Of a DNA stretch of 42,812 nucleotides, positions 9,118 to 41,000 are shown piece after piece. The position numbers were made by a program, and so were the translations under genes. The notes below the pieces were generated by a model. It was not told where the DNA came from. It saw nothing but the letters and a program-made list of their open reading frames with translations, and ran no database searches. The first letter of the stretch is position 1; each line of letters starts with the position of its first letter. Location: contig JAFOFC010000021.1 of assembly GCA_017387515.1 (NCBI GenBank), positions 1-42,812 on the forward strand, given 5' to 3'. The DNA is from Paludibacteraceae bacterium. GTDB taxonomy: Bacteria > Bacteroidota > Bacteroidia > Bacteroidales > Paludibacteraceae.

Positions 9118-10371
9118 TTATACTTCTACTTCTCCGTTCATCAACTTAGGTAGCAAGCGGTCGCGAGCCTCGGTAAGTGAGCGGACTTGGTTTGCCAAAG
9201 CAAACAATTTTTTCATCATTGGACTGATTACTTCATCAAACTTAACAATGTATTTCTTATTGGGCATCAGTAGTTTTAACGACTTAATTGCATTTTGATT
9301 AAGGCCAGGTTGAGCAGCATTCTTATTTAACTTTTGCATTTTCTCAAAATAAACTTTCTGATATAATGTAAAGAATAAAAAGTATTGACAAATTTCTTCT
9401 TTTGTATGTAAAAGGAATACATGCTCATTTACCATAGCCTCTTTATGAGGGAAATTATCTTGAAATAAGGATGTTCGGCCTATGTATGCTCCATCTTTGT
9501 AAATAAGAATATCTTTATTTTCAATTTTACCTTTCTTTGCGTTTTTGTAAAAATCATAAGATACAAGTTTTTCAGAAGAGAAATTGTATAGTCCAGGTCC
9601 AATAACATTCTCAGCTCCAACACTAGCAATTCCTTCTTTAATAGAAGTATCAATACCTCCTTTTGGTCGTGACCCTGATTCTAACTTTTCAATTATATTG
9701 TCAACTGATGTAATGTTCCAACCTTCGGGTATGCCATCAACAAATTTTGTGGTTTCGTGACCGGGAAAGCGGAAATCTACAAACCATTCCTTGTATAGTC
9801 GCTGTGCCGCCTCCTCCAACAGTTTTATTTGCCGTTGATAGTTCTCAATCAAATCATCATAACGTGACAGTATGCTTGCAATGCGGTGTTGAGTTTCTAT
9901 TGGCGGGCAAGGAACCTCAAAATTTTCAATCATTACTTTAGTCATTGCATTTCTTGAGGCTCCCTTCCCTACTGCTAAACTTAACATATATGCTTGCATT
10001 TTGGGAGTTGTAAGAAAATAATTTAAATAATGAGAGTTTATTATTTTTTCATTGACTCTTATTATTGCAACATGTTGATTGACCCTCGCAGGTAAGACAC
10101 AATCTGGAACAATGCATGTTCTTGCGACAGAATCTCCTGTTATATTTAATAGAATATCATTTTTGTAGATAGTCACTCCTTTGAGTTTTTGTGCTGCTTC
10201 TTCTGTTATATGTGTAAGCCCATTATAATCAAATGAAAGATTATATACGTTTTGACTACGAATAAATGAGGTGCCAGAATCAATATATACAGTCGAACCT
10301 CCTTTAGGGGTAGACCCACTTCCTATTTTAACACAACAATCCCCCAACCTCACCTTCTTCCATTCACTCAT
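9118..10371 (-). CDS. hsdS: Type I restriction-modification specificity subunit
   Basis: DNA-recognition subunit of 417 aa with two target-recognition domains. TRD1 spans about 1-155 (starts EWKKVRLGDCC) and TRD2 about 210-375 (starts GWNITSVDNIIE). Each is followed by a conserved helical spacer: HRIASILSRYDDLIENYQRQ in the middle and VRSLTEARDRLLPKLMNGE at the end. The TRDs look visibly more AT-rich than the flanking genes, as expected for exchanged recognition domains. It overlaps the DUF1016 gene by 4 bp (start 10371, stop codon 10368-10370). It would define a bipartite target, which cannot be predicted from the sequence alone. Confidence 0.95.
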   Translation of the reverse strand: MSEWKKVRLGDCCVKIGSGSTPKGGSTVYIDSGTSFIRSQNVYNLSFDYNGLTHITEEAAQKLKGVTIYKNDILLNITGDSVARTCIVPDCVLPARVNQHVAIIRVNEKIINSHYLNYFLTTPKMQAYMLSLAVGKGASRNAMTKVMIENFEVPCPPIETQHRIASILSRYDDLIENYQRQIKLLEEAAQRLYKEWFVDFRFPGHETTKFVDGIPEGWNITSVDNIIEKLESGSRPKGGIDTSIKEGIASVGAENVIGPGLYNFSSEKLVSYDFYKNAKKGKIENKDILIYKDGAYIGRTSLFQDNFPHKEAMVNEHVFLLHTKEEICQYFLFFTLYQKVYFEKMQKLNKNAAQPGLNQNAIKSLKLLMPNKKYIVKFDEVISPMMKKLFALANQVRSLTEARDRLLPKLMNGEVEV

Positions 10372-11489
10372 ACCTCTTCCTCCTTGTTTTGTTTTGGGTC
10401 TCTAAGTTCATTTTCAATGTCCTCTATAGATGGCAGAGCACTCTTAAAGTCTTCTGTTAGTTTGTCGAAGATTTCAACAGAAGAGACTCCAATAGGTGAA
10501 TCTACTCCTTGTAGTGTATATTCCGCTACAACGTCGTTTTTGTCTTTACAAATAAGTAGTCCGATGGTAGGATTGTCTTGAGGTGTGCACATCAAATTGT
10601 TGACAGCTGTTACATAGAAGTTCAGTTGTCCAATATGCTCTGGTTTGAAAGCTGTTGCTTTCAGTTCTATTACAACATAACAATGCAGACGCACATGATA
10701 GAACAATTGGTCAATATAGAAATCCTCATCTCCTACGCGAAGGTGTACTTGGTGCCCATAGTAGGTAAAACCCTTGCCCAGTTCCAATAGGTATTGAGAA
10801 ATGTGAGTGTCCAGATGTGCTTCTAATTCTCGCTCTTGCATTTCTTGGTGTATACCCATGATGTCTATGATGTAAGGGTCTTTTGTTATCTGTTGTGCCA
10901 AGTCGCTTTGAGGTGCAGGCAGTGTCTGTTTGAAATTGCTAACAGCTTTACCTTGTCGTTCGTATAGATTGCTGTCTATCTGCCAGTCAAGTACATTACG
11001 GCTCCAGTTATTTTCAATGGTCTTTTGAACATAGAACATAGCCTTTTCTGGTGCTTTCAAAAACTTATCAATAAGCAACTTGTGATGACCCCATGGAACC
11101 GAAAAGATTAAAGGCTCAGAATTGCCCCCAACTTGGGGGTTATTTAAAGAAGCATTGATTTGTAGCAAATTGCCCTCAACTTGGGGGTTATTCTCAACAG
11201 CATTAGCGTAAAGTAGATAAAACCTCTTGATATATCCAAGATTAGTAGGAGAAAATCCCTTGGTCTCAGGGAACTCTTCCTTTAAGTCTATACTAAGGTT
11301 TTTAAAGAACTCGGAGCCGTATGTATTCTCAAAATTACGCTCTACAATATCTTTCCCCAATGACCAATAGAATCGCAATATTTCGCTATTTACCTTCACA
11401 GCCGCTTTAATCTGGCTCTGACGAAAACGTTGGCTGAGTGACTTTAGCCACTCTGCATATTCTTTGTTTGCAAGCAATAGTTTACTCAT
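10368..11489 (-). CDS. DUF1016 (YhcG-like) protein with PD-(D/E)XK nuclease domain, inside the RM operon
   Basis: 373 aa, DUF1016 architecture. The N-terminal helical domain (about 1-130) carries the family signature FYWSLGKDIVERN and GFSPTNLGYIKRFYLLY, followed by the typical VPWGHHKLLIDK. The C-terminal nuclease-like domain has FYIDQLFYHVRLHCYVVIELK, i.e. the D...(E/D)xK catalytic pattern, then GQLNFYVTAVNN. The molecular function of the family is not settled; it is often found in defence islands and inside type I RM operons. Here it overlaps hsdM by 8 bp and hsdS by 4 bp, so it is translated as part of the RM operon. The linker around residues 90-125 contains a duplicated NNPQV(G/E)GN segment encoded by palindromic repeats (11121-11192). 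Confidence 0.88.
   Translation of the reverse strand: MSKLLLANKEYAEWLKSLSQRFRQSQIKAAVKVNSEILRFYWSLGKDIVERNFENTYGSEFFKNLSIDLKEEFPETKGFSPTNLGYIKRFYLLYANAVENNPQVEGNLLQINASLNNPQVGGNSEPLIFSVPWGHHKLLIDKFLKAPEKAMFYVQKTIENNWSRNVLDWQIDSNLYERQGKAVSNFKQTLPAPQSDLAQQITKDPYIIDIMGIHQEMQERELEAHLDTHISQYLLELGKGFTYYGHQVHLRVGDEDFYIDQLFYHVRLHCYVVIELKATAFKPEHIGQLNFYVTAVNNLMCTPQDNPTIGLLICKDKNDVVAEYTLQGVDSPIGVSSVEIFDKLTEDFKSALPSIEDIENELRDPKQNKEEEV
11121..11192 (-). repeat. Two 24-bp direct repeats, each containing a G/C-run palindrome, within the DUF1016 gene
   Basis: Copies lie at 11121-11144 and 11169-11192, offset by 48 bp (16 codons). Each contains a palindrome with C-run and G-run arms: CCCCCAA-C-TTGGGGG at 11125-11139, and the same with one mismatch at 11173-11187. 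They encode the repeated NNPQVGGN / NNPQVEGN linker segments. The spacing keeps the frame, so copy number could change without destroying the protein. Confidence 0.8.
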
Positions 11490-13293
11490 GATTTAATTCC
11501 TCCCAACTTTTCAAAATATCTTCCATCAACACATTGGCTTCGTCGTTTAAGCGTTTTAACTCTGTGTGAATCTCGTTCATACGTGCGTTGAAGTCCACTC
11601 CATCGTCTTCTGCTTCTGCCACACCTACGTATGCTCCGGGAGTAAGCGAATAGTTCTTTTCTTCTATCTCTTGGATGGTGGCTATTTTGCATAAACCCAG
11701 TATATCTTGGTATTGCCCTTCGCCAAACTTTTCGGTTAACCATTGGTATTGACGAGCGGTTTCTAGTGTATCTTCCAATGCATCCTGAATGGCTTTTTGT
11801 TCTGCTTCTATGCGTTTTTTGTCTTTACGTGAAGCATTGGCAATAGCCTCCTTGGCTTCTGTTTTGTGCTTTTCAAGAGCCGCTTGGGCAGATGCTACAG
11901 TAGTATCGCCAAGTTCTTTTCTATAGTCGGCAAGTAATGCTTGGTATTTTTCTGTTTCGCCTCTATAAAGGTGTACTATGGCTTGCAAGTTGCGTAATTG
12001 CCATTCGGTCCATTCGTTGAGGGTGCGATCTACTACGGTGTAGTAATTGCGTGCGTCTATAAAAAGTACTTTGTCTCTGTTTTCTGCTCGTTTTGCTTTG
12101 TCAAAAAACCAAAGTGAACAAGGAAGTGAAAGGGTGTAGAAAAAGTTGTTGCCTACGCTTACCATTACATCTACATCTCCAGTACGTACCAGTTGTTCCC
12201 GAATCTCGCGGTCTTTATTGGCACTGTCGGTAGCAGAACTTGCCATAACAAAACCTGCGCGCCCCGTGTCATTGAGGTATGCATGGAAATAACTAATCCA
12301 TAAATAGTTAGCATTACCAATCTCTTTGGTTTTGGCATTTACACCCGGCAAACCAAAAGGCAAACGACCAGCTGCCCATGCCGATTCAGATTTTACTTTA
12401 TCTACGTTGAACGGAGGATTGGCCATTACGTAGTCGCATTTGCCTGCTAAATTATGTGCGTCGTGGTAAAAAGAGTTTGCTGCATCGCCCGAGATTACCT
12501 TGCCGTTTAGTCCATGCACAGCCATGTTCATAAGGCAAAGCTGAGCGTTGTATTCTACTTTTTCTTGTCCGTAAAAGGTCATTTGGGTGTTGGCGTTTAG
12601 GCCAGCATGATTTACAAAATCGCCTGTTTGTACAAACATGCCACCAGACCCACAAGCAGGGTCAAGCATAATGCCAGATGTTGGTTCAAGTACATTTACA
12701 AGCATCTTTACTAGCGATTTTGGTGTAAAGAATACACCGTCATCACTGGCTACTGCTTTTGCAAATTTTGATAAGAAATATTCATAAATACGACCAATTA
12801 TATCTCCACCTACCTCGTCAATGGTCTTATTGTTAAAGATACGAAGTAATTCGGCCAATAAATCATCGGCAAACATGGTATAGTTTTTAGGTAAAATACC
12901 AGTTAGTTGTTCGCTTTGTTCTTCTACCAATTGCATGGCGTAGTTTACAGCCTCGCCTAAGGAGTTAATGGCTTTGCCGTCTTTTGTAGTGAGCTGGGCG
13001 GCAGCGATATTCTCTGGTAGGTTTATCAGGTATTCGTATTGCGCTTCAAGGGGTAGGTATAAGGCACTTTTAGCCATAAAATCGGAAGCTTCTACGGGCA
13101 TCACCCTACCACCGCGTGAGGGGCGGTTTTGTAATATCTCTGCTTCTACCATTTTGTATCGGCTATAAGCATAGCGCAAAAATAGCAACGCCAGCACAGG
13201 CATACAATATTGACTACTGGTCAATTTACTTCCTTGACGAAGCAAGTCGGCAGATTCCCATAGGTCGGATTCTAATTTCTTTATATTGGTCAT
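11482..13293 (-). CDS. hsdM: Type I restriction-modification DNA methyltransferase, M subunit
   Basis: N6-adenine methyltransferase of 603 aa. The HsdM N-terminal helical domain starts NIKKLESDLWESADLLRQ. The SAM-binding motif I DPACGSGGMF lies at about 209-218, the catalytic motif IV NPPF at about 290-293, and a coiled-coil stretch rich in A/E/K at about 470-520. I chose the ATG at 13293 over an in-frame upstream start at 13335. The extra 14 residues (MGFLSPTYLQNQYT) are not HsdM-like, and a TAnnTTTG promoter element lies at 13340-13347. It is the first gene of the RM operon and overlaps the DUF1016 gene by 8 bp. All motifs are intact, so host DNA should carry its methylation. Confidence 0.95.
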   Translation of the reverse strand: MTNIKKLESDLWESADLLRQGSKLTSSQYCMPVLALLFLRYAYSRYKMVEAEILQNRPSRGGRVMPVEASDFMAKSALYLPLEAQYEYLINLPENIAAAQLTTKDGKAINSLGEAVNYAMQLVEEQSEQLTGILPKNYTMFADDLLAELLRIFNNKTIDEVGGDIIGRIYEYFLSKFAKAVASDDGVFFTPKSLVKMLVNVLEPTSGIMLDPACGSGGMFVQTGDFVNHAGLNANTQMTFYGQEKVEYNAQLCLMNMAVHGLNGKVISGDAANSFYHDAHNLAGKCDYVMANPPFNVDKVKSESAWAAGRLPFGLPGVNAKTKEIGNANYLWISYFHAYLNDTGRAGFVMASSATDSANKDREIREQLVRTGDVDVMVSVGNNFFYTLSLPCSLWFFDKAKRAENRDKVLFIDARNYYTVVDRTLNEWTEWQLRNLQAIVHLYRGETEKYQALLADYRKELGDTTVASAQAALEKHKTEAKEAIANASRKDKKRIEAEQKAIQDALEDTLETARQYQWLTEKFGEGQYQDILGLCKIATIQEIEEKNYSLTPGAYVGVAEAEDDGVDFNARMNEIHTELKRLNDEANVLMEDILKSWEELNHE

Positions 13294-13339
13294 AGTGTAT
13301 TGATTTTGTAAGTACGTTGGGGATAAAAATCCCATCTTA

Positions 13340-20643: not shown

Positions 20644-20690
20644 GTTTATTCGTTGATACGTTTAGTCGTTTAGTCGATTGTTCGCTTCGC
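20644..20690 (-). repeat. 8-bp tandem array with GCGAAGC motif upstream of the FNT promoter
   Basis: Five units in register on the plus strand: GTTTATTC, GTTGATAC, GTTTAGTC, GTTTAGTC, GATTGTTC (20644-20683). GCTTCGC (20684-20690), the reverse complement of GCGAAGC, follows directly. On the minus strand the core unit is GACTAAAC, the same unit as at 20805, 21086 and 33683. Confidence 0.8.
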
Positions 20691-20838
20691 TCTGTGGGGC
20701 AACAAGCGATAATCGACATATTAAATTAAGTTAAAAGAATGCTTACCCTCTTGTAACATTCTGCCAAATGTCTTTACCTTTGCAACATCAATTTGGCGCT
20801 CGTCGCCTAAACGCATCAACAACTAAACGACTAAACGT
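20658..20838. other. Possible invertible promoter segment bounded by a perfect 17-bp inverted repeat
   Basis: The 17-mer ACGTTTAGTCGTTTAGT (20658-20674) is exactly the reverse complement of 20822-20838. The 147-bp segment between contains a good plus-strand promoter (20751-20782) that currently points toward the tra cluster. Inversion would turn it toward the FNT gene. Promoters flanked by short inverted repeats are a known phase-variation device in Bacteroidales. The caveat is that both arms are made of the common 8-bp unit, so the symmetry may be incidental. No invertase gene is in the window. Confidence 0.4.
20751..20782 (+). promoter_or_regulatory. Promoter reading toward the tra cluster
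   Basis: TTG (20751-20753), 21 bp spacer, then TACCTTTG (20775-20782), an exact TAnnTTTG match. The resulting leader of about 105 nt contains the octamer array and mini-hairpin at 20805-20849. This is the only clear plus-strand promoter I found before traE. Confidence 0.6.
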
Positions 20839-20894: not shown

Positions 20895-21065
20895 ATGTTT
20901 GGTTTATCCGAAATTAGTTGGGGCAATTTTTTGCTTGCAACTGCCTTGTTGTGTCTGCTGTTTAATGTAGGCGTTTGGGTGTACTTTTGGTGGGACGCTA
21001 AACGCACGTCCAACCCCTCGTCGTTGCGCAAACAACAAAAGTTCCATCAGTCCTTACCGTTTTAG
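20895..21065 (+). CDS. Small single-pass membrane protein, 56 aa, first in the tra cluster
   Basis: Not recognised. One hydrophobic segment (about residues 11-33, LLATALLCLLFNVGVWVYFWW) is followed by a basic cytoplasm-type tail (DAKRTSNPSSLRKQQK). The ATG at 20895 overlaps, in another frame, a 13-residue upstream ORF (MKSSYHYVWFIRN, 20876-20917) that could couple translation. It lies between the tra promoter and traE on the same strand, so it is probably transcribed with the cluster. It could be a small T4SS accessory or an unrelated passenger. Its size and position do not match TraC or TraD of Bacteroides elements. Confidence 0.6.
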   Translation: MFGLSEISWGNFLLATALLCLLFNVGVWVYFWWDAKRTSNPSSLRKQQKFHQSLPF

Positions 21066-21085
21066 CCGCCGCAAGTTGTTTAATC

Positions 21086-21117
21086 GCCTCAACAACTAAA
21101 CGACTAAACGACTAAAC
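21086..21117 (+). repeat. 8-bp tandem array in the traE leader
   Basis: Four units in register: GCCTCAAC, AACTAAAC, GACTAAAC, GACTAAAC. It ends 29 bp before the traE ATG. No GCGNAGC hairpin abuts this copy. Confidence 0.8.
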
Positions 21118-21146
21118 AATTATTCATTCATCTTAATTTCTATTTT

Positions 21147-21455
21147 ATGAAAACGAAACTTCAAAAATGTGCCACAATGGTGGCAATGAGTGCCGTAGCT
21201 TCTGCAGCATGGGCACAAGGCAATGGCGTAGCAGCCTTAGAAAAAGCCAATTCAGAAATTATGTCGTATGTAGAACCCATGACCAACCTCTTTTACGTGG
21301 TGTGTGCCGTTATTGGGTTAATCGGTGCCATTAAAGTGTATGGCAAGTGGTCGGCCGGCAGTAGCGATACCACCAAAACCGCCGCATCGTGGTTTGGCGC
21401 CTGTGTTTTTGCCATTGTGGCTGTTACCGCTATTAGGGCATTCTTTATTGGGTAA
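21147..21455 (+). CDS. traE: TraE-like conjugation protein (DUF4134), VirB2-type pilin candidate
   Basis: 102 aa. The signal peptide (about 1-23) is cleaved after AAWA, giving AQGNGVAALEKA, the typical start of mature DUF4134 proteins. Two hydrophobic segments follow (about 45-65 and 85-100), with the conserved VIGLIGAIKVYGKW between them. In Bacteroides conjugative elements TraE is the small two-helix membrane protein that fits the VirB2 pilin slot. It is the first recognisable gene of the T4SS cluster, 2 bp before traF, with an octamer array in its leader. Confidence 0.88.
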   Translation: MKTKLQKCATMVAMSAVASAAWAQGNGVAALEKANSEIMSYVEPMTNLFYVVCAVIGLIGAIKVYGKWSAGSSDTTKTAASWFGACVFAIVAVTAIRAFFIG

Positions 21456-21457
21456 CA

Positions 21458-21781
21458 ATGGCTTCGTATCCCATTAACAAAGGGGTGGGAAAGTCTATAG
21501 AGGTAAAAGGACTCCGTGCTGGCTACGTTATTTTTGCCGTGGTAGGTACCGTGTTGGCCTTGCTTTTGCTGTTTTTGCTGCTATTAGTAGTACCCATCGC
21601 TATAGCCATTGTGGTGGGGGTAAGCATGTTATTGGCAGTGTGGTGGGCTAGTTTTTACCTCAACAAAAAGTATGGCGAGTATGGCTTAATGCAGCGCCGT
21701 GCAGTCAGAAACATTCCCATGCGCATAGGCATTTCTTGCTCCGTTACTCAGTTGTTGCGTCATGAAAAATCCATTTGGTAA
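21458..21781 (+). CDS. traF: TraF-like conjugation protein (DUF4133), VirB3-like
   Basis: 107 aa. It starts YPINKGVGKSIEVKGLRAGYV, the DUF4133 signature, followed by one long double hydrophobic segment (about 25-68) and a cytoplasmic tail (YLNKKYGEYGLMQRRA). By size, topology and gene order it corresponds to VirB3, an inner-membrane partner of the VirB4 ATPase. It overlaps the start of traG by 20 bp, as is common for this gene pair. Confidence 0.88.
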   Translation: MASYPINKGVGKSIEVKGLRAGYVIFAVVGTVLALLLLFLLLLVVPIAIAIVVGVSMLLAVWWASFYLNKKYGEYGLMQRRAVRNIPMRIGISCSVTQLLRHEKSIW

Positions 21782-24248
21782 AAAGTTACAAGATTGTTTT
21801 CCCTTGTTGGCCTGGGAAAACAATTGCTTGGTAAGTCAAAGTGCCGATATCACGGTGCTGTTTACCCTTACGCTTCCCACCGTTTTTGAACGTGGTGTAG
21901 AACAATTTGAAAACGAACACGCGGCTTGGGTACGTGCCTTGCGCTTGTTGCCCCATTACACCATTGTACACAAGCAAGATGTGTACCAGCAAACCCGTTT
22001 TGAACCTACCCATGTACAACAGGCATCGGTTTCTATTTTACAACAAGCGTCCGATGATCATTTTAGGGGGCGGCAGTACTTGGAGCATACGTGTTATGTG
22101 TACGTTACGTTATCGTCTAAACAAAACATGCAAACCCAAAGTGTGGGCAACATGCTTTGTCAAAACCGCATTGTGCCTAAAGATATGTTGCAGCCTCATC
22201 GCATAGCCGATTTTTTAGATAAGGTGGCGCAATTTAAAGCCGTACTAACCGAGGCGGGTTACCAGGTACAACGATTGGGCGAAAAGGAGGTACTGGGCAG
22301 TAACCCATACACGGGGCTCTTGGCCCAATACATGCAGTTGCATTTTAGTCAGCCCCCCACGGCGTGGGCCGATTTACACCTGTCGGATGCCGATTTTATG
22401 GTAGGCGATAAGTACGTTAGTGCATTTTCGTTGCATCAGGCAGAGCAATTGCCCTCGCAGGTGCACACCTATCGTATGCATCCTGCTTACAACCAAGTAG
22501 ATTTACCCTTATCGTATGCCTCTGTTATGGGGGCCGATTTGCCCTTTTCGCACATTTATAACCAATATTTCTTTTTAGACAATGCGGCAGATTTGTTGCA
22601 AAAAATAGAAAAATGTGGGCGGCAGCAGGCTTCTTTATCGGGTATATCGCGCCAAAATGCCATTAACAAAACCTTTAACGAAGCTTTTCTAAACGAGGCC
22701 ATGGCACAGGGAAGGCAAGCCGTGCGCTGTGCATTTAACGTGATGCTTTGGGATACCGATTACTATCAATTGCTTAAAAAGCAGGCGCAAGTATCGGCTG
22801 CGTTAACCCAAATTGATGCTTTTGCCTCTAAAGCAGAGGGCATTGTGCCCCTGTTGTTTTGGGCAGGCATTCCTGGGGCTGCATCGCAATACCCCGCCGA
22901 AATGACGTTTCTTACTTTTTTGGAGCAAGGAGCGTGTTTTATCAATGGAGAAACCTTTGCTACCCATACCCAACAGCCCTGTAGCATTCGTTTATGCGAC
23001 CGTATAACGGGCATCCCCTTATCGGTCGATTTGTCGGACTTGCCTTTAAAGAAAGGATACATTAACAACCGAAATAAGTTTATTTTAGGCCCGTCTGGTT
23101 CGGGCAAATCCTTCTTTACCAATCACTTGGTAAGGCAATATTACGAACAGGGCAGCCATGTGGTATTGGTAGATGTGGGCGATAGTTACAAAGGCCTGTG
23201 CGACCTTATTGCTGAAACTACCCATGGTGAGGATGGGATTTATTACACCTATACCGACAAAAATCCCATTGCGTTTAATCCGTTTTATGTGGCCGATGGG
23301 TATTACTCCATCGAAAAGCGCGAACAGTTGGCCTCGTTGGTGTTTTGTTTGTGGAAGAACGAAACCGAAACCGTTACCAAGGCCGAAGAAACCCACATTG
23401 CCGATGCCATCAATGGGTATTTGCTGCAAGTAACAGCGGGTGCTTGTATGCCATCGTTCAATACGTTTTATGATTATTTGCAAACCACGTTTAAGCAACA
23501 ATTAAAACAGCAAGATGTGCGCGATGTGCATTTTGACATCGATAATTTGCTGCAAGTATTGCGCCCTTATTATAACGGGGGCATGTACGATTATTTACTC
23601 AATGCTACCCAAAACATCAACCTCCTTACCAAACGATTTATAGTGTTTGAGATAGACAACATCAAAGACCACAAAACCCTGTTTCCGGTGGTAACCCTTA
23701 TTTTGATGGATACGTTTATTTCTAAAATGCGGCATCCCGCCGTGGCAGGGCAGCGCAAAATGATTCTAATAGAAGAAGCCTGGAAAGCCATTTCTAAAAA
23801 CGGTACTGCCGAGTTTATTAAATACCTGTTTAAAACGGTGCGTAAGCATTTTGGCGAGGCCATTGTGGTAACGCAAGAGGTAGAAGACATTGTAGGAAAC
23901 GACATTGTTAAGAACACCATTTTGTCCAATGCCGATTGCAAAATTTTATTAGACCAACGTAAGTATGCCCATAAATTTGACGAAATTAAACAAACCTTAT
24001 CGTTAAACGAACACGAAAAAGCATTGGCCTTATCGCTTAATCAAGACCTTTGCACGCAGGGACGCAACCCTTATAAAGAGGTATTTATTACGTTCAATGG
24101 CAATGCCCCAATGGTATATGCCTTAGAGGTGTCGCGTGCCGAATATTGGGTATATACCACCGAAAAAAGCGAAAAAATCCGCCTGCAGCAGGCGCAGCAA
24201 GACTATGGATCGTTGCAAAACGCCATTCATCATCTGGTTACATCTTAA
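21762..24248 (+). CDS. traG: TraG-like conjugation ATPase (VirB4 family)
   Basis: 828 aa, full length for Bacteroidetes TraG. This is the T4SS assembly/energising ATPase on the inner membrane. The N-terminal 400 residues form the substrate-contacting part starting FPLLAWENNCLVSQSADITV. The ATPase domain has Walker A GPSGSGKS at about 443-450 and Walker B MILIEEAW near 666-674, followed by VTQEVEDI. Reading frame and motifs are intact. It overlaps traF by 20 bp and is followed 12 bp later by the DUF4141 gene. It is not the VirD4-type coupling protein; none was found here. Confidence 0.95.
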   Translation: MKNPFGKKLQDCFPLLAWENNCLVSQSADITVLFTLTLPTVFERGVEQFENEHAAWVRALRLLPHYTIVHKQDVYQQTRFEPTHVQQASVSILQQASDDHFRGRQYLEHTCYVYVTLSSKQNMQTQSVGNMLCQNRIVPKDMLQPHRIADFLDKVAQFKAVLTEAGYQVQRLGEKEVLGSNPYTGLLAQYMQLHFSQPPTAWADLHLSDADFMVGDKYVSAFSLHQAEQLPSQVHTYRMHPAYNQVDLPLSYASVMGADLPFSHIYNQYFFLDNAADLLQKIEKCGRQQASLSGISRQNAINKTFNEAFLNEAMAQGRQAVRCAFNVMLWDTDYYQLLKKQAQVSAALTQIDAFASKAEGIVPLLFWAGIPGAASQYPAEMTFLTFLEQGACFINGETFATHTQQPCSIRLCDRITGIPLSVDLSDLPLKKGYINNRNKFILGPSGSGKSFFTNHLVRQYYEQGSHVVLVDVGDSYKGLCDLIAETTHGEDGIYYTYTDKNPIAFNPFYVADGYYSIEKREQLASLVFCLWKNETETVTKAEETHIADAINGYLLQVTAGACMPSFNTFYDYLQTTFKQQLKQQDVRDVHFDIDNLLQVLRPYYNGGMYDYLLNATQNINLLTKRFIVFEIDNIKDHKTLFPVVTLILMDTFISKMRHPAVAGQRKMILIEEAWKAISKNGTAEFIKYLFKTVRKHFGEAIVVTQEVEDIVGNDIVKNTILSNADCKILLDQRKYAHKFDEIKQTLSLNEHEKALALSLNQDLCTQGRNPYKEVFITFNGNAPMVYALEVSRAEYWVYTTEKSEKIRLQQAQQDYGSLQNAIHHLVTS

Positions 24249-24260
24249 CTATTACATCCC

Positions 24261-24995
24261 ATGAAAAAAATCTTACTTCTTATTCTTTTTACCACCCAAC
24301 TGCTTACCGCTTATGCGCAGTTTGTGGTGAGCGACCCTACCTCTTTTGCGCAACGCCTTAGTTTGTTTGCCGAAGAGTTGTACGAAATCATGACCGACCG
24401 TAAAGAACTGATATCGCAAACGGCCAATACGGGCCAGATGCTAAAAAACACCAAAGAAGCGTTAGAAAAATTGCAGCGGGTAAGCCATTACGTACAAGGT
24501 GCAAAAATATCGCTCGATATCATCAAAGAGGGGGTGGAATTGTCTAATCAGGTAAATAAATTGCACACCGACTTTAGCCAGTTAACCCACCTTACCGACG
24601 AAGAAATAGCCAATGCCGTTTGTTTTTCGGCCGAGTTGGGTGACCATGTTGCCGATATGGTGGCCGAGGCAAAAGAAATGCTTAGTAGCCGTAAAGACAA
24701 GGGCGAAATGACCGACTACGAGCGCATTCAGCTGCTAAAAGACATCCAAAAAGAGCTAAAAACCTTGCGTGGGTTACTCACCAGCGTGCAAAAACGTTTT
24801 AAGGATAAAAATTCGTTGGCCTTGATGGACGATTACATGCAAGCCATGACCACCGAGGCCATCTTTTTTGGCATGGAAAAAGCCTGGGATGTGCCTATGG
24901 CCGACCCGTCATCGGTAGTAGATAGGGTGGCCGATAAAAACAAAAAAAGCACCAAAAAGTCTACCCAATCATCATCTAAATCCACTAAAAAATAA
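24261..24995 (+). CDS. traI: TraI-like conjugation protein (DUF4141)
   Basis: 244 aa. The signal peptide (about 1-20) ends TAYA, and the mature start is QFVVSDPTSFAQRL as in DUF4141 proteins. The rest is a long helical, coiled-coil-rich periplasmic body (about 60-190, for example NTGQMLKNTKEALEKLQRV), plus a low-complexity Lys/Ser tail (KNKKSTKKSTQSSSKSTKK). The fold and position suggest a VirB5-like periplasmic role, though this equivalence is inferred. The Lys/Ser-rich tail seems unusual and may be disordered. Confidence 0.85.
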   Translation: MKKILLLILFTTQLLTAYAQFVVSDPTSFAQRLSLFAEELYEIMTDRKELISQTANTGQMLKNTKEALEKLQRVSHYVQGAKISLDIIKEGVELSNQVNKLHTDFSQLTHLTDEEIANAVCFSAELGDHVADMVAEAKEMLSSRKDKGEMTDYERIQLLKDIQKELKTLRGLLTSVQKRFKDKNSLALMDDYMQAMTTEAIFFGMEKAWDVPMADPSSVVDRVADKNKKSTKKSTQSSSKSTKK

Positions 24996-25000
24996 GCCTT

Positions 25001-25936
25001 ATGTTGATGTTAAATTCGTCTATGGCTGCCCTAGCGGCATCGCTTTCGCAGCAATTAATGCAAGTTAAAGAGCTGGCTCAAGAGTATGTTGCAGCCTTGG
25101 CTGTGCCAGCGCAACTGTTGTGTGGTTTGTTTGCCTTTATTTACATAGGGGTAGGGTTGTGGGGGCAATGGGCAAGAGGGCAAAAAATTGATTTTTATGG
25201 CTTGTTGCGTCCTTTTGCCGTTGGTTTGGTGGTGCTCTTTTTTTCGGGGTTTGTTGCCTTATTGGGGCTTAGTATTTACCCCATAGAGTTGGCTACTAAA
25301 TCGCTAAACAGTGCTGTTCAAACCAACTATCAACAGGCGCAGCAAGAGTACCAGCAAGCTAGCAACACCATGCGTAATGCCATGGCAGCTTACCAACGTA
25401 CGCAGGTAGAGCAAGAAGAGCTAGATGTTGATCAGGTAACTACAGAAGCAGAGCAGGGTGGCAATTACCTGCAACTGTTTAAAACCAGCGTACATCTGTT
25501 GGTTTCGTTTAGCTCGTTGGTATTAACAGGCATGGTGTATTTTTTTAGGATATTTGTGGTATTGGCCACCATTGTGCTGTCGTTAATAGGGCCATTTGCC
25601 TTTGCGTTGTCGTTGTTACCAGGTTTTGAAAACAACATTAGAAACTGGATGGTGCACTACCTACGCATTGCCATGTATGTGCCCCTTAGTTTGCTGGTTA
25701 GTTTTGTGGTGGCGGTTTTGTTTTCGGGTTGTGTGTACCCCTATTTTACCAAATTGATTACGGCATTGCCCAGCGCTAATTATACCTTTGCCCACTACGA
25801 AACGGCGCAAAACGTAGGTTTTTCTATCCAACTTATTACTCTTTTGTTTAACTGCATTGCCATTGCTTTGTACGCTTGTATCCCTACTTTTTCTACGTGG
25901 ATTATTCGCAGCGAGAGCAAAGCCAATGCCAAATAA
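25001..25936 (+). CDS. traJ: TraJ-like conjugation membrane protein (VirB6-like)
   Basis: 311 aa polytopic inner-membrane protein with hydrophobic segments at about 35-55, 68-90, 160-205, 220-250 and 275-300. A Gln-rich helical loop (about 100-130, YQQAQQEYQQASNTM) separates the two membrane halves, and ILSLIGPFAFALSLLPGFENNIRNWM is the TraJ/VirB6-like core. Two closely spaced Met codons (1 and 3) make the exact start uncertain by two residues. It follows traI by 5 bp. Confidence 0.88.
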   Translation: MLMLNSSMAALAASLSQQLMQVKELAQEYVAALAVPAQLLCGLFAFIYIGVGLWGQWARGQKIDFYGLLRPFAVGLVVLFFSGFVALLGLSIYPIELATKSLNSAVQTNYQQAQQEYQQASNTMRNAMAAYQRTQVEQEELDVDQVTTEAEQGGNYLQLFKTSVHLLVSFSSLVLTGMVYFFRIFVVLATIVLSLIGPFAFALSLLPGFENNIRNWMVHYLRIAMYVPLSLLVSFVVAVLFSGCVYPYFTKLITALPSANYTFAHYETAQNVGFSIQLITLLFNCIAIALYACIPTFSTWIIRSESKANAK

Positions 25937-25944
25937 ATGGTGCT

Positions 25945-26565
25945 ATGTTTCAGTCATTAAAACACATACAAAATGCATTTGCTTTGGTACGTATCTACCT
26001 TATTCTTATTACGGTGGTGGCTATAGGGGTTAGCGCTTACGCCATCTATGCCTCTTTTCAATTTGCCGAGGCGCAACGCCAAAAAATTTATGTATTAGAC
26101 CAAGGTGAATCGTTGTTAATGGCCCTTTCGCGCAACGTGTCAGAAAACAGAAAAGCCGAGGCCAAGTCGCATGTAAAGCGTTTTCACGAATATTTCTTTA
26201 CCCTTTCGCCAGAAAAAGACGCCATAGAAAACCACGTTTCGCAAGCCTTGTTTTTGGCCGATAACTCGGCATCCGACGTATATATGCAGCTAAAAGAAGA
26301 AGGTTTTTACGAGCGCATTATTGCCTCTAGCATTGTGTGCGAAATAAAAATAGATAGCATTGTTATTAACGATGCCGTATATCCGTATCGGGTTAAAACC
26401 TATGGCATGACCTCTATTGTAAGGCGTTCTAACATTACCTACCGTAATTTAGAAACCGAGTGTTCGTTGCTTCATGCTACCCGTACCGACCAAAATCCGC
26501 ACGGATTTTTAATTGAGAATTGGAAAATTATTGATAATAGCGATGTAAGCATAGTACAACGATGA
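25945..26565 (+). CDS. traK: TraK-like conjugation protein (VirB8-like)
   Basis: 206 aa bitopic protein. The short cytoplasmic N-terminus is MFQSLKHIQNAFALVR, then one membrane segment (about 17-38) and a periplasmic domain with LDQGESLLMALSRN and YRVKTYGMTSIVRRSNITYRNLETEC, characteristic of TraK. I chose the ATG at 25945 because it gives the family-typical N-terminus and length. An in-frame start at 25876 would add 23 residues that overlap traJ. It overlaps traM by 4 bp, leaving no room for the traL usually found between them. Confidence 0.9.
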   Translation: MFQSLKHIQNAFALVRIYLILITVVAIGVSAYAIYASFQFAEAQRQKIYVLDQGESLLMALSRNVSENRKAEAKSHVKRFHEYFFTLSPEKDAIENHVSQALFLADNSASDVYMQLKEEGFYERIIASSIVCEIKIDSIVINDAVYPYRVKTYGMTSIVRRSNITYRNLETECSLLHATRTDQNPHGFLIENWKIIDNSDVSIVQR

Positions 26566-27593
26566 ACAAGCAACAAAAATTTTTACATGCCGTATCCTTG
26601 TTGGTAACCGCCTTTGTTATAGTATGTTTCTTTTTGTTAGGTGGAGGTACAGCTCAAAAGCCTACCATACCGCTAGAACAAGCCCAGCAGGGAATAAATG
26701 TTAGTGTGCCCGAAGCCGATGCCAACGAACTATCGGCCAATAGGTTAGAGGCTGTTCTGCGCCAAACAGAAGAAAATAGCTGCAACGAGCGCATCAATCG
26801 CATGCAACAGGCCTCGTCGTTTAGGTGGCTCGATACCCCACCCATCGATTCTTTGCAGAAGCATGATGAGGTTGCTGTGCAGGTAGAACCTACTAAAGCA
26901 CCTTCATCGCAGCGGGAAGTGCCAAAAAAAACGAGCGCACAACTTACGCCAGAGCAAGAAAAACAACAGTTTATAGAGATTACCCGTAGGCAGTTGGCCC
27001 AAAAATACGGCATTGAGTTGCCCGAAGAATCCGCACCAACACCTGCCAGCAATCCCCAACAACAACCCTCGGCAACGGTGGCTTCTACTAGCACCCCTGG
27101 GTTTTACGGATTAGAAAGCCCTGCGCCTGCCGCCACCGATATACGGGCCGTGGTGCATGGCGAGCACCGTAATGTAGAGCGAGGGGCCATTGTTAAGTTG
27201 CGCTTGCTAGACAACATCGTTATAAACGGCACCACCATACCGGCCAATACGTTTTTGTACGGGCAGTTAGGTTTTGCATCGTGCAGGGCCACCATTCGGA
27301 TAGAAAATGTGCAGTATGGCGGGGTAGTGTATCCCTTTGTTGGAACCATTTACGATAAAGATGGTTTCGAAGGCCTGTATGTACCCGATAATCGAATAGA
27401 CGATGCAGCTCGTAAGGCAGGTTCGCAAGCATTGGGTAATGTTAACGTGCGTATTCCAGGGGCGTCATTTATCACCTCGGCAGCCAATGCGGCGGTAAGT
27501 GCCGTGCAGTCGGTGGCGCAACAAACCATCAGCGAGCAAAAAATTAATATATCGTCCAATTATTTAGTAACCATCAAACAAACATCCAAATGA
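26562..27593 (+). CDS. traM: TraM-like conjugation protein (VirB10-like)
   Basis: 343 aa. An N-terminal membrane anchor (about 8-28) is followed by a long, low-complexity, Pro/Gln/Ala-rich periplasmic linker (about 80-185). The C-terminal TraM domain (about 190-310) contains VVHGEHRNVERGAIVKLRLLDNI, GTTIPANTFLYGQL and GTIYDKDGFEGLYVPDN, equivalent to the VirB10 barrel domain bridging both membranes. Start overlaps traK by 4 bp and the end overlaps traN by 4 bp, so all three are coupled. Confidence 0.93.
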   Translation: MNKQQKFLHAVSLLVTAFVIVCFFLLGGGTAQKPTIPLEQAQQGINVSVPEADANELSANRLEAVLRQTEENSCNERINRMQQASSFRWLDTPPIDSLQKHDEVAVQVEPTKAPSSQREVPKKTSAQLTPEQEKQQFIEITRRQLAQKYGIELPEESAPTPASNPQQQPSATVASTSTPGFYGLESPAPAATDIRAVVHGEHRNVERGAIVKLRLLDNIVINGTTIPANTFLYGQLGFASCRATIRIENVQYGGVVYPFVGTIYDKDGFEGLYVPDNRIDDAARKAGSQALGNVNVRIPGASFITSAANAAVSAVQSVAQQTISEQKINISSNYLVTIKQTSK

Positions 27594-28654
27594 AACGTTT
27601 TGGCTTTTTCTTATCTTTTTTCTGCTTTTGTACCTGGCTATTGGCCAATCCCGTGTTTAACATCAGCCATACCCAACAGTTGGCCCTGCAGTTTCCCTCA
27701 GAAATTAAGTACGTAGACGTGGGCAGTGCCCAAGTTGAGGTACGTCAGTTGGCCGATTCGCGTACCCTAACCTTGCGCGCCAAGCAAGCGTATTGTGCCA
27801 ACAGTACCTTGTCGGTAGTAACCTCTAACGGCAAGTATTACTTATACACCCTTTTGTATGCTCCTACCTTGCCTTTTTTGGGGTACATAATCGATAAAGG
27901 GCCCATTCCATCGCCTGTGGTAGGTATTGGTCAAACCAAAACCACTCACTTTATAGCGCCTTTTCCTATTGCCGATTGGTCGGTAGGTACCGATTCGGTT
28001 ATTGCCGCCTATGCCGATGGCATACAAAACATGGTGCGCATTAAAGCTGCACAACCCTACAAGGCAGAAAGTTCGATGGTGTTGTTGGGCCAGCGAGGTT
28101 CTATTTATACCTACCGATTGGCCTGCAACGATAGTACGCCTTTGCTTTCGGTACAGTTGGGCGATTCGCTTTCTTCGTCGGCGCTGTTTTTGTCCAACCC
28201 CGTCGATATTAATTTGCTACAATCGTTGGGCGAGCAAGCCCTGCAACAACCATACACGGTAAATCATTTGGGGGTAGTAGACCATAAAATGCATTTTGCC
28301 GTAGTGGGCATTTTTAGTCACGAAAATTGGTTGTTATTTAGGTTGCAAATACACAATAAGAACAACATCAACTACGACATTGATTTTATTAAAGGTTACA
28401 TTGTCGACAAAAAAGGGAGCAAACATACGGCTCTGCAAGAAACCGAGATTGCTCCCTTTTATACCTATTGTTCCGATAGCGTAGCTACCACCCTTCCGGC
28501 TAATCATGTGCAAGAAAGGGTAGTGTTTGTGCAACGTTTTACCATTCCTAAACAGCGCACCCTTTACTTTGAACTATTTGAAAAAAACGGGGGTAGGCAC
28601 TTGTCGTTCCCTGTTTCTAACAAAGAGTTATTAAAGGCCCGTAAGTTGCACTAA
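27590..28654 (+). CDS. traN: TraN-like conjugation protein (DUF4138, VirB9-like)
   Basis: 354 aa secreted protein with signal peptide (about 1-19, ending LLA). The mature part starts NPVFNISHTQQLALQFPSEIKYVDVGS, the DUF4138 signature, and is followed by beta-rich domains including ENWLLFRLQIHNKNNINYDIDF. TraN is the outer-membrane-core component partnering TraM. It is the last gene of the cluster. Downstream is a convergent gene and a hairpin repeat, so traO, traP, traQ and all mobilisation genes are absent here. Confidence 0.9.
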   Translation: MKRFGFFLSFFCFCTWLLANPVFNISHTQQLALQFPSEIKYVDVGSAQVEVRQLADSRTLTLRAKQAYCANSTLSVVTSNGKYYLYTLLYAPTLPFLGYIIDKGPIPSPVVGIGQTKTTHFIAPFPIADWSVGTDSVIAAYADGIQNMVRIKAAQPYKAESSMVLLGQRGSIYTYRLACNDSTPLLSVQLGDSLSSSALFLSNPVDINLLQSLGEQALQQPYTVNHLGVVDHKMHFAVVGIFSHENWLLFRLQIHNKNNINYDIDFIKGYIVDKKGSKHTALQETEIAPFYTYCSDSVATTLPANHVQERVVFVQRFTIPKQRTLYFELFEKNGGRHLSFPVSNKELLKARKLH

Positions 28655-33590: not shown

Positions 33591-33682
33591 GACTCGGCAA
33601 AATCAATGTAACATTGCTTCTGCTCTCGCTGCTCCAAATGTTGCCCCACAATAATCATTACACCTAAAATTGCGATTAAGCG

Positions 33683-33730
33683 AACTAAACGACTAAACGA
33701 CTCAACGACTCAACGACTAAACGACTAAAC
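33683..33730 (+). repeat. 8-bp tandem array (six units) directly before the antiporter start codon
   Basis: Units AACTAAAC, GACTAAAC, GACTCAAC, GACTCAAC, GACTAAAC, GACTAAAC are in perfect register. Only 7 bp separate the array from the ATG at 33738, so the array occupies the ribosome-binding zone and no Shine-Dalgarno is present. Confidence 0.9.
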
Positions 33731-33737
33731 AAAAAAT

Positions 33738-37037: not shown

Positions 37038-38003
37038 CTATCTACAGAAATGTTTTTGATAACAGAAGCTATAACCTAGCATAATTTCGTGTGTACCGTA
37101 GTTTTGGGTAACTAGGTTGTTTAGGTCAAGGCTAAAGGCATAGCCCAATTGGAATTGACCAATGCGGAAACCACACATAGGCATCAATACCATAGCTTGA
37201 ATGTTGTTTGGGTTCCAGCTATGACGGTACGATGCTTGTACCCAATACCCCCAATCTTTGTCTACATCGTGTCCAAATTTAAGGTTTAAGTCCATGTTTA
37301 ACTCTAGGTACTTATTCATTTTTAACATAGCCATAGGCTCGATGTATTTGTCTTTACGTGCACCTAGGTCAAAGGTGTAACCACCAAACAAGAAACCGGT
37401 AAACGGAGCTGGCATTTCTTTGTCACCATAAATATCGGCAGCCAATGGAATGATGTTGGTTAACGATAAACCTACAAAACCACCATACGATTTATAGTAA
37501 ACACCAAAGTTAGCATTGGGCAAGAAACCGTCTGTGTTGTTAAAGGCAATGTCTTGCGATGCATTAGGGTCGTCTATAAACAAATCGTTGCTGATGTAGA
37601 AATAAGCAAATTTAAACGATACACCAAACGATAGTTGACGGTCGTATGACACCTTTTTAGAGTATCTTCTGCCGCTGGTAAGTGGAATGTGGTAAGCAAA
37701 GGTTGCTTGTCCACCCGCCTTGTTGGTGTAACCATTGCGGTCGTGGTAGATGTATGCACCAATACCTACGTTTTTCCAAACGCGTGTTTTAAACGATAGC
37801 AATTGGGTCATAGGAAAATCTTCCATACCGGTCCATTGCATTTTATTGCTCACCATTAAGTGCGAACAAGGTTCTGCGCCCGCCAAAGCAGGGTTCACTA
37901 AATAGTAGTTAAAATGATACTGATTGTATATAAACTCTTCTTGCGCAGTAGCCTTACCTACTGCCAATAGGGCTAATAAAACGATGCATACGTACTTTTT
38001 CAT
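37038..38003 (-). CDS. PorP/SprF-family type IX secretion outer-membrane protein
   Basis: 321 aa. The signal peptide (about 1-20, ending ATAQ) is followed by the family signature EEFIYNQYHFNYYLVNPALAGAEPCSHLMVSNKMQWTG split over the first 45 mature residues. A beta-barrel body with alternating aromatic strands ends LMLGYSFCY-like (IMLGYSFCYQK). PorP/SprF-like proteins anchor or help export T9SS substrates of type B. Here the gene directly follows, by 61 bp, a 1444-aa type-B substrate, the usual pairing for a dedicated partner. It may have its own promoter (38037-38044). Confidence 0.92.
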   Translation of the reverse strand: MKKYVCIVLLALLAVGKATAQEEFIYNQYHFNYYLVNPALAGAEPCSHLMVSNKMQWTGMEDFPMTQLLSFKTRVWKNVGIGAYIYHDRNGYTNKAGGQATFAYHIPLTSGRRYSKKVSYDRQLSFGVSFKFAYFYISNDLFIDDPNASQDIAFNNTDGFLPNANFGVYYKSYGGFVGLSLTNIIPLAADIYGDKEMPAPFTGFLFGGYTFDLGARKDKYIEPMAMLKMNKYLELNMDLNLKFGHDVDKDWGYWVQASYRHSWNPNNIQAMVLMPMCGFRIGQFQLGYAFSLDLNNLVTQNYGTHEIMLGYSFCYQKHFCR

Positions 38004-38036
38004 GTTGTAAAGATAGTATTTTATTTAGGTTATTTG

Positions 38037-38044
38037 CAAATTTA
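38037..38044 (-). promoter_or_regulatory. Possible promoter element before the PorP/SprF-like gene
   Basis: TAAATTTG on the minus strand matches TAnnTTTG, in the 61-bp gap after the giant gene. No convincing -33 element was found, so co-transcription with the upstream gene is equally possible. Confidence 0.3.
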
Positions 38045-38064
38045 TCCAATCTGTTCCTTGTTTT

Positions 38065-41000
38065 TTAACGTTTCAAGGTAAAGTGACCGGTGTATTGTTT
38101 TCTAATTTCTTCTACGGTAATTAGGTACCAATAGTCGTCGCTAGGCATTTGGTGCCCATTGTAATTGCCATCCCATCCTAGCCATGTAGTTGGGTCGTTG
38201 GCGGTTTCGCTGAACGAACCCGTGCGGTATTCGTACAAACGACGGCCATAACGGTCAAAAATTTCTACAATCCAAGAGGTGTAAGCATCCAATCCTTCAA
38301 CGGTCCAACGTTCTGTTTCTGGGTCTCCTTCGCCATTAGGCGAGAAGAATTTTTTAGGAATAACAGGAATAGGACTAATCTCAAATGTGTCGCTGTTTTC
38401 GCATCCCCATTCGTTGGTAATGTACAAACGGTGGTAACCAATTGGAATACCCGAAATTACTACTGGCGAGTTTTCGTAGGTATTGTCAATGTCGTCTACG
38501 CGGAATGTTGGCCATTGGGTTTGGTCGTCTGCAACGGCTGTAATTTGGCGTACATCTGTTTCTTCTATCGATACAATAACGGGTTTTGGATGAACCGTTA
38601 CTTTGGTTTCTTTAGTAGCCGAACATGTTTTTAGTAAGGTTTCAATTTCTACCGTGTAGGTTATGTCTTGTTTGGGCGATGCCGTAGGTTGTTGAATGGT
38701 GTTATCGCTTAGACCGTTGTTTGGTGACCATTTATAGGTGTAATCACCATCGGCATCCAATTCCAATTTAACATCATTGCCTTCGCAAATTTCATAATCT
38801 TGGATAGAAGCTACAATGCCTTTTTCTACCGTAATGGTAACCTCTTTAGACGCTTGGCAAACGTCTTTAACGGTTCCAATATAGGTAAACTCGCCTGCAG
38901 CATCCGCCGTAATGGCTAGGCTAGTTGCTTTGGGGTCTTCTTGTGGAATAGCGGTGCCATTAAGTGTCCAAGAATAGGTAGCATCTGGATATTGGGTAGT
39001 ATTGATGTCAAAGGCCAATGTGGTGCCTTCTCCTTGGCAAAGTATGTTAGGAGTAGCCGATACGCTAAAGTCGATAGCACCAAGAACGTCTACCTGGGTA
39101 GTAGCATCGGCAAAACAAGTACCGTTGGTTACTTCTAATGTAATGGTGTGTGTGCCTTCTGTTTCGCCAGTATAGGTAAGGCTAGCATCGTCCTCGCCTG
39201 TTAAAATAGTGCCGTTGTCTTTCCATACGTAACTAGGACTTGTCAATGTAGCTGCTTCTGCATAGGTTACAGTTGCTGTGCCCTCTAAACAGATGATGGC
39301 AGGGTCAACGCTTAGGGTAGGAATTGGTTTTTTGTCAACGTTAATGGTAATGGTGCCATCACCCTCGCATGCACCATTGGTTACTTCTACATCGTAGATA
39401 GTTTTAGCCGTTAATGCTTCTAGGTCTGAATATACGCGCATGCCGTTACCTTCTGCAACTTTAGTACGAACTCCATCTGCTCCTGTTTTGTACCAAGTGT
39501 AATACTCGCTTGCATTTTCTGGACGGCTAGAAGTAATGGTTACTTTGGTGCCTTCGCAAACGGTATTGTTGGTAGCATTCGATGTTAATGGCACATTCAT
39601 GTTAGTGCCAATTAGCACCGTATGCAAAACTTCTTTGCCACACATGGTAGCATTGCCAAATGTGATGGTATAAGTTACCGATGCCACGTTGCCGTGTGCG
39701 GTATTATCAGTAAAGGTATATTCGGTACCGCTAAAGTTGGGTTCTGTTTTTAAGACGGTAGAACCTTTTTTAATCACCAAGTCGCCTGTGCCTTCCATGT
39801 TGGTAAGCGTAAGGGTTACCTCGGGAGCGGCGGCACACACTTCGTCTGGAGCCGATAAGGTGAAATTGGTATTTTCGTGAATATAGCCATGTAGAAAGAC
39901 ATCGCTTTTTGCACAATAGTTAGGACTCTCCGAACTTACACGAATGTAAAATGGTGAGGTGTCGTCTTGCATTACAACAAATTTAAATTCAGAGGAACCA
40001 ACATTGGTATTGTTGCCAGAAAGGTCGTTAAGTGGTCTAAGTACATTGCCAGCAGCGTCCACTTTGTGCCAAGTCCATACGGTTTGTGGGTCTGCGGTGC
40101 TGGTCATGTATCCAGCCATGGTAGTGGTAGCCAGGTCATTTCTACAATAATCATCGGGAACAAGCCCTGTGGTGTTAATACCGGCACTTTGTGGTTTTAG
40201 TGTTACCGTTACCGCTGTTCTTTCACTTTCGCAGTAGGTGTCGCTAGTTCCGTCTTGGTCGTAGGTAACGTAATAGGTGGTAGTTGGGCTTGCGCTGTTA
40301 TATGTGCTAACGTCAACGTTTTGAGCATCTGTGGCGCTCATAGGGGTGTCGCCTGTTGCGCTAGTATACCAATAGTAAGTACCCGTGCTGCTAGGGTTGG
40401 TAATTAAGGTATTTAAGTCCAATTTGGTGGTACTAGGGCACTCTTTATAATTTTCAGCCTCTGGAGCAGGCGATGCGGTACATTCGCATTCGTAGGTAAT
40501 CTTAATGGGATCAGATACGGCTGTTAGTGCTCGGCAACCTGTGCCAGGTTGTCCGCTTGTAGCAGAAGCTTCAACAGCTTCTTTGGTAGCACCTACCCAT
40601 ACACGATAATATAAGCCATTTTGATATTGTGTTGGGTCTACGTCTATAGTTATAGAAGGGTCTGTGCTAGCTGCTGCTGATACAGGACTCCAAGGACCCG
40701 TTTCTGATGTTGATGTTTGGAAGAAATAGTAGGGTGTGTCAAAAAATTCTGTTAAATCGTAAACAGCTGATGCTTCTAAGAGCACATTTACATTGCTGCC
40801 TTGACCACATACAGTTACAATGGGTTTGTAAGCATTGTCAGAGTAAATCTGAATTTCGGGGCGACATGCGCTAAATACAATATCGTCTACACCAATGTCG
40901 TTACCAAGAACATTTCCATCTTGATCTACGGTTCCTTGGTAATTATTTCGGATGGAAACAACAAATGTAGTATAGTCGCCCGAGTTAAACGAACGTCCGT

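Follow-up and report, generated by a model that had tools for sequence, protein, structure and literature searches.

According to PMC12857230, type IV secretion systems (T4SSs) without the coupling protein VirD4 include Bordetella Ptl and Brucella VirB, which serve export, Helicobacter pylori ComB, which serves DNA uptake, and Bartonella Trw, for which adhesive pili have been proposed; ComB consists of VirB2–VirB4 and VirB6–10 and lacks both VirD4 and VirB11. T4SSs without a relaxase were described in 2011 as surprisingly numerous, with non-conjugative use given as one explanation (PMC3158045), and according to PMC4793230 protein-secretion T4SSs are known only in the mating-pair formation (MPF) types MPF-I and MPF-T. 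In the open-access literature, we found no earlier description of a domesticated Bacteroidetes-type T4SS. The locus studied here lies in contig JAFOFC010000021.1 of assembly GCA_017387515.1 (Paludibacteraceae bacterium), a stretch of 42,812 nucleotides referred to as the window, which is contig C10 of the draft genome G000 (1.76 Mb, 81 contigs, 86.9% complete). Eight genes, traE, F, G, I, J, K, M and N, stand head to tail at 21147–28654, preceded by a 56-aa open reading frame (ORF).

We take the Tra channel of Bacteroidetes to be of the MPF-B type, with TraE, TraF, TraJ, TraK, TraM and TraN presumably filling VirB2-, VirB3-, VirB6-, VirB8-, VirB10- and VirB9-like roles, respectively. The window probably carries the larger part of a once-mobile Bacteroidota (MPF-B) T4SS that was domesticated before its genus radiated and that does without VirD4. 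The observations behind this reading are genus-wide presence, common descent, selection, co-retention of two separated halves, and a coupling protein in none and a relaxase in one of 16 genomes. A sequence-only reading of the window had raised the idea of a channel kept for another task, and near-fixation, congruence with RecQ, purifying selection and retention after a split into two sites all support it.

Distribution in the genus and family

The genus, called Enterocola (Paludibacteraceae) here after its member Candidatus Enterocola intestinipullorum (L006), was sampled by 16 genomes, the window genome included, all of them drafts with gaps; close relatives in our named collection are mostly Paludibacteraceae metagenome-assembled genomes recovered from the gut and rumen of animals. 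A single copy of TraG is present in 15 of the 16 (13 full length, one split over two contigs in G003 and one cut by a contig end in G005), always with its Walker A motif. Among the 342 other genomes of the family, 34 have it (E ≤ 1e-100), spread across 11 further genera, a marked difference from the genus (Fisher p 2e-13). These 34 are unevenly spread, and include 13 of the 15 examined genomes of the genus labelled g26 (G322–G336). The closest TraG in 72,556 plasmid records is 47% identical.

Common descent and selection

TraG and RecQ trees of 13 genomes have nine of ten splits in common, against a best of four in 10,000 label shuffles, and their Mantel correlation (r 0.67) was equalled in none of 10,000 shuffles; G007 and G008 were left out of the comparison for want of a full RecQ, and G009 for want of TraG, and several forks are weakly supported in both trees. 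In a 42-row TraG tree, built without the partial sequences of G003 and G005 and read without an inferred root, a branch with a Shimodaira–Hasegawa-like approximate likelihood ratio test (SH-aLRT) value of 98 separates the 13 full-length sequences of the genus from all others, and they are placed among Bacteroidetes conjugative-type clusters; the long branches of L021 and L024 meet in this tree. As judged from these sequences, the cluster predates the radiation of the genus and has been vertically inherited, which disfavours the young remnant that the sequence-only reading had also allowed for.

The ratio of nonsynonymous to synonymous substitution rates (dN/dS) of the tra genes lies at 0.075–0.29 where the synonymous rate (dS) was computable (window against G007, G003 and G004); dS was often above 1, saturated or not computable, and the corresponding ratio of proportions (pN/pS) was read as well. 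Purifying selection on the tra genes is seen in every comparison with a computable dS. Values for traO, where computable, are 0.08–0.18, those for the surface protein gene c13, introduced below, are 0.12–0.13, and those for the 56-aa ORF, for which tblastn found matches 5' of traE in 7 of 27 named loci, are 0.22–0.24 in the same comparisons as for tra.

Two architectures of the locus

The tra locus is linked to traO, a surface protein gene (c13) and a lipoprotein gene (c14), all of which lie outside the window. The absence of traO noted by the sequence-only reading thus holds for the window but not for the genome, where the gene is on contig C21. An alignment search found traO in 14 of the 16 genomes (G000 copy at C21:32562–33104), and the equivalent search found c13 in 14 of 16 as well (G000 match at C21:28745–31873); both genes were missed only in G009, which has no TraG either, and in G005, where the tra contig ends. 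Although no genus-wide search was made for c14, 11 of the 14 c13 genomes have it next to c13, and the stretches of the other three stop at or before it (G001, cut where c14 begins, G013 and G014).

Eleven TraG-positive genomes carry a Gate-family transporter gene on the upstream side of tra, followed by mnmG and ybeY in nine (G001, G002, G005, G006, G008, G010, G013, G014 and G015), the contigs of G011 and G012 ending before that position. In nine of these 11, traN is directly followed by traO and the ~1300-aa c13; a few genes intervene between traN and traO-c13 in G008, and the G005 contig ends inside traG. The window, G004 (L003) and G003 (L013/L141) have a different arrangement, in which traE–N lies between a clpP–FNT side and an envC side, and the G007 contig (L002) holds tra only. 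All four genomes of this split clade (G000, G003, G004 and G007) keep traO, c13 and c14 together at a shared second site, whose shared flanks include an RlmL-like methyltransferase and a DUF4294 gene (assigned by Pfam for G000). Both halves were therefore retained after the block was split. Separately, the third gene beyond c14 in L178 (4585–6489) encodes a protein of 634 aa that has a helix-hairpin-helix (HHH_3) motif, and L179 has the same order.

Genes for DNA transfer

The relaxase family PF03432 was not found in the window genome, and one of the 16 genus genomes, G002, is positive; its relaxase is cut by the end of a 5.9-kb contig that carries NikA/MobC-like and AbiE/AbiH-like genes and no tra. 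The coupling protein family PF12696 was found in none of the 16, five of which have a completeness of 90% or more and a contamination of 5% or less. The same profiles detected PF03432 in 11 of 12 non-genus relatives, and PF12696 in six of seven non-genus relatives and also in control genomes. These counts do not support a channel that uses a relaxase encoded elsewhere, an option that the sequence-only reading had left standing.

Relatives with a relaxase beside the same kind of cluster, which had been named beforehand as a finding that would tell against a repurposed channel, do exist, outside the genus only (Adhaeribacter L014/L015 and others), and the tra clusters there look mobile. In Adhaeribacter L014, genes for a coupling protein, a relaxase and MobC-like, ParA-like and DUF3408 proteins precede a similar tra cluster. 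Of 17 stretches taken from other genera in the family, six (L090, L100, L102, L103, L104 and L109) have a relaxase and a coupling protein near tra and one (L096) a coupling protein alone. The hallmark of the genus is the absence of DNA-transfer genes from whole genomes rather than a local absence.

The neighbouring genera are heterogeneous. In g26, 10 of 15 genomes encode a coupling protein, and four that are 99–100% complete (G323, G328, G329 and G336) have TraG without one, as has G316 of genus g24 (99% complete), whose TraG gene contains an in-frame stop; PF03432 was not searched in these five. In L016 and L026, carAB, DUF4197 or Mg-chelatase genes flank tra. Domestication may have occurred more than once, in related genera too. 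In L096 itself (9439; G334:C138), a coupling protein of ~885 aa is encoded directly 3' of traN, and other g26 genomes with the TraG type of L096 have the coupling protein on a separate contig.

The co-inherited proteins c13 and c14

The c13 protein of G000 has 1271 aa. All 11 c13 sequences compared have a signal-peptide-like start, as judged by eye, and no internal stop, and the ten others are 22–53% identical to the copy of the window genome. The NCBI profile for a type A sorting tail of the type IX secretion system (T9SS) was detected in five of the 11 scanned, that of G000 having been scanned without its tail; the whole G000 protein, at 22.6 bits, falls short of the cut-off of 23. Modelled with AlphaFold2, residues 1–1150 form mainly beta strands, with a mean predicted local distance difference test score (pLDDT) of 66.8 and about 65–92 per ten-residue block over residues 480–1000. 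In a Foldseek search of the PDB, the model best matches chains with immunoglobulin (Ig) domains, among them fragments of the Aureispira grappling hook protein GhpA. The model suggests tandem beta/Ig-like domains at the level of fold class, and c13 is probably a large surface protein with an apparent T9SS tail.

An initial BLAST linked c13 with giant proteins of L017 and L019, but a profile search of the loci of 33 relatives did not bear this out and was positive for L093 alone. Neither c13 nor c14 had a match in PHROGs or PADLOC. With a lipobox-like cysteine, again identified by eye, and a weak PKD match, c14 is an apparent lipoprotein. Its homologues lie near tra in L099, L017 and L019, and the genome of L019 has a relaxase and a coupling protein on a contig numbered C160, like that of L019 itself. 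The position of these homologues beside tra in L017 and L019, both relatives of the mobile type, suggests that c14 came with the mobile ancestral element.

Proposed mechanism and points against it

A conjugative element would have entered the ancestor of the genus and then lost its relaxase, coupling protein and mobility, leaving a fixed chromosomal system of traE–N, traO, c13 and c14. In the window clade, a rearrangement would have placed traE–N between FNT and envC, and traO-c13-c14 at the second site (G000:C21). We infer that the VirB4-type ATPase TraG powers a TraE pseudopilus that is assembled or moved through an envelope complex of TraK, TraM, TraN and TraO. Since no coupling protein was found, cytoplasmic substrates would lack their usual entrance, and the machine would act at the surface or from the periplasm. 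The outside contact or receptor part would be c13, with its signal-peptide-like start, Ig-like domains and apparent T9SS tail, together with c14.

The single most likely job, put forward tentatively, is that the retained mating-pair part makes contact with, or attaches to, other cells, mucus or particles. A contact or attachment role would fit best because the possible VirB5 (TraI) has been kept, the outer proteins are co-inherited and c13 is divergent. A more specific version, in which an Ig-like stalk protein exported by type IX secretion joins the MPF-B T4SS, TraO and the lipoprotein in a hybrid surface machine contacting neighbour cells or host mucus, is possible but less likely than not, and its standing is lowered by the breaks in c13. 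If true, such a machine would be the first repurposed T4SS of the Bacteroidota (MPF-B) lineage and a functional link between a T4SS and a T9SS, and would have evolved at least once in the genus and perhaps again in related genera.

Several observations weigh against a domesticated and working system of this composition. TraJ and TraM fall below the NCBI cut-offs, which marks the channel as divergent, and sequence evolution is faster in tra than in clpX, clpP, recQ, dut and ferritin, whose dN/dS lies at 0.015–0.05; together with envC (0.06–0.07), these lower values place tra under weaker constraint. TraG was not found in G009 (85% complete), through loss or a gap, incompleteness alone being expected to cause about 2.2 misses among the 16 genomes for any given locus. 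The Mob_Pre search was positive nowhere, controls included, and PF03432 and Mob_Pre were the only relaxase families searched. In 10 of the 17 stretches from other genera, both a relaxase and a coupling protein are missing near tra (within ~20 kb or to the contig end), so that local absence alone is not telling. The c13 gene is broken in two of 14 draft genomes, by one in-frame TGA stop in G007:C241 and into two separate frames in G014:C37, which may reflect assembly error or recent loss; that of G013 is one open frame. The T9SS tail went undetected in five of the ten c13 proteins scanned besides that of G000. Finally, the c13 TM-scores are low (0.07–0.16 by query length among the 50 matches listed) and support a fold class, no more.

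Alternative explanations

Two other functions come next in likelihood, and we regard each as rather unlikely. In ComB-like DNA uptake, a VirB4-driven pseudopilus would draw double-stranded DNA into the periplasm and ComEC would take one strand inward. The gene subset resembles that of ComB as PMC12857230 describes it, and ComEC (PF03772) is present in 12 of the 16 genus genomes. It was not found, however, in G000, G004, G007 or G008 (the last 96% complete), and G009 has ComEC without TraG, so that 11 of 15 TraG-positive genomes have ComEC and no consistent co-occurrence is seen; draft gaps may explain part of this, and the pattern is decisive neither for nor against uptake. Nor does 35–63 kb of each of six genomes contain a dense 10-mer resembling an uptake sequence, save for a clade-specific tandem repeat of G000, and TraI, a possible VirB5 by a weak match, has been kept, unlike in ComB. 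In two-step export in the manner of Ptl or Brucella VirB, proteins delivered to the periplasm by Sec would exit by way of the TraK/M/N/O complex. The missing coupling protein fits, those two systems likewise lacking one according to the same source, but the co-inherited secreted proteins seem to have exit routes of their own (the apparent T9SS tail of c13 and the lipobox-like cysteine of c14), and reading the genes beside the cluster revealed no candidate effector, no effector search having been made.

Visiting mobilizable elements might supply relaxase and coupling protein and borrow the channel in trans, and the small G002 contig, with its relaxase and its NikA/MobC-like and AbiE/AbiH-like genes, could be such a visitor; near-fixation and purifying selection nevertheless call for a benefit to the host, and with the coupling protein found in no genus genome we hold this helper role to be improbable. 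Least credible is a decaying remnant of an integrated element. The relaxase and the coupling protein are gone, c13 is broken in two genomes, and traK and traM overlap in the window with no ORF between them, where several genus relatives have one. Against decay stand the open frames of all window tra genes, the universal Walker A motif, dN/dS well below 1, congruence with the species tree and the retention of both separated loci.

Gene content and surroundings of the window locus

The tra genes were assigned with Pfam and NCBIfam profiles (Table 1). As the sequence-only reading had stated, all eight are full length with open frames (8/8), and no relaxase, coupling protein or recognised integrase adjoins them; the integrase statement comes from reading the window translations, no integrase HMM (hidden Markov model) having been run, and no tRNA was found. 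The start of traK is most likely the ATG given in the table, the mechanical ORF opening earlier, at a TTG at 25876. TraI keeps its position across the genus despite its weak profile assignment, and has a signal-peptide-like start and an all-helical AlphaFold2 model (pLDDT 65.5); a fold search in the PDB gave no match at E ≤ 0.001, so its VirB5 identity rests on the weak profile match.

Table 1. Genes of the tra locus in the window (window coordinates)
Feature	Coordinates	Strand	Evidence
Small conserved membrane-type ORF, 56 aa, 5' of traE	20895..21065	+	sequence reading; tblastn
traE (DUF4134)	21147..21455	+	PF13572 1.5e-30
traF (DUF4133)	21458..21781	+	PF13571 2.7e-19
traG, VirB4-type ATPase	21762..24248	+	TIGR03783 2.1e-288; Walker A (GPSGSGKS) and Walker B-like motif
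traI, perhaps VirB5/TrbJ-like (weak)	24261..24995	+	TrbJ 1e-4, DUF4141 7.7e-05, both below cut-off
traJ	25001..25936	+	TIGR03782 3.7e-25, below cut-off
traK	25945..26565	+	TIGR03781 5.1e-78
traM	26562..27593	+	PF12508 3.5e-33; TIGR03779 2.5e-35, below cut-off
traN	27590..28654	+	PF13595 3.2e-57; TIGR03780 9.5e-61

Base and codon use resemble those of the host, in agreement with the sequence-only reading. The GC content is 45.1% for tra against 43.2% for flanking genes, and the codon correlation of the pooled tra genes is 0.90, compared with 0.75–0.92 for nine single flanking genes longer than 300 codons and 0.81 for a restriction operon; single tra genes range over 0.48–0.88, the short ones being lowest. 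The neighbours are likewise as first described, an FNT transporter gene upstream (Pfam) and ferritin-dut-envC on the other side; clpP, clpX, recQ, envC, dut and ferritin were named by reading translations, not by HMM.

The restriction operon is a type I restriction-modification operon (HsdR, HsdS and HsdM) at window 5952–13335, with a PDC-S02 candidate defence gene; its GC content is low (39%), and L003 and L013 do not have it at this position. At 37038–42399, a PorP/SprF-type T9SS protein adjoins a protein of 1444 aa that combines Ig-like domains with a type B T9SS tail, so T9SS-type proteins do exist in the window genome. An intergenic tandem 8-bp repeat, (CGACTAAA)n, occurs at 20659–20676, 20820–20837, 21088–21118 and 33682–33731; the window contains 10 matches where 0.13 would be expected. 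Genome-wide, it was counted 41 times in G000, 36 in G004, 18 in G007 and once each in G003 and G005, with none in the other 11 genus genomes.

Comparison with described systems

A Bacteroidota case with vertical inheritance, selection and conserved partner genes makes the role of relaxase-less T4SSs testable in gut bacteria and, if the proposed reading is true, would tie a T4SS to a surface protein exported through another secretion system. With the conjugative transposons and integrative and conjugative elements (ICEs) of Bacteroidetes (CTnDOT type, TIGR03779–03783), the system shares the gene order E-F-G-I-J-K-M-N and a VirB4-type TraG; it differs in having no relaxase or coupling protein that could be found, in being near-fixed in the genus and in occupying two chromosomal sites in one clade. 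Instead of a patchy, horizontally spread distribution of the ICE kind, it shows presence in 15 of 16 genomes and a tree congruent with RecQ. The system belongs with the MOBless and VirD4-less T4SSs, the channel and VirB4 being present and VirD4 and a relaxase not found in the 86.9% complete draft. Like Bordetella Ptl, Brucella VirB, H. pylori ComB and Bartonella Trw, it retains channel and VirB4 without a coupling protein; here, however, it is a Bacteroidota Tra system whose partners are TraO, a lipoprotein and a surface protein of the T9SS type. It also resembles the MOBless T4SSs of Guglielmini et al. (2011, PMC3158045) and the protein-secretion T4SSs (pT4SSs) of Abby et al. (2016, PMC4793230), which likewise have no nearby relaxase, and adds to these a system of the Bacteroidetes type whose inheritance and partner genes have been examined.

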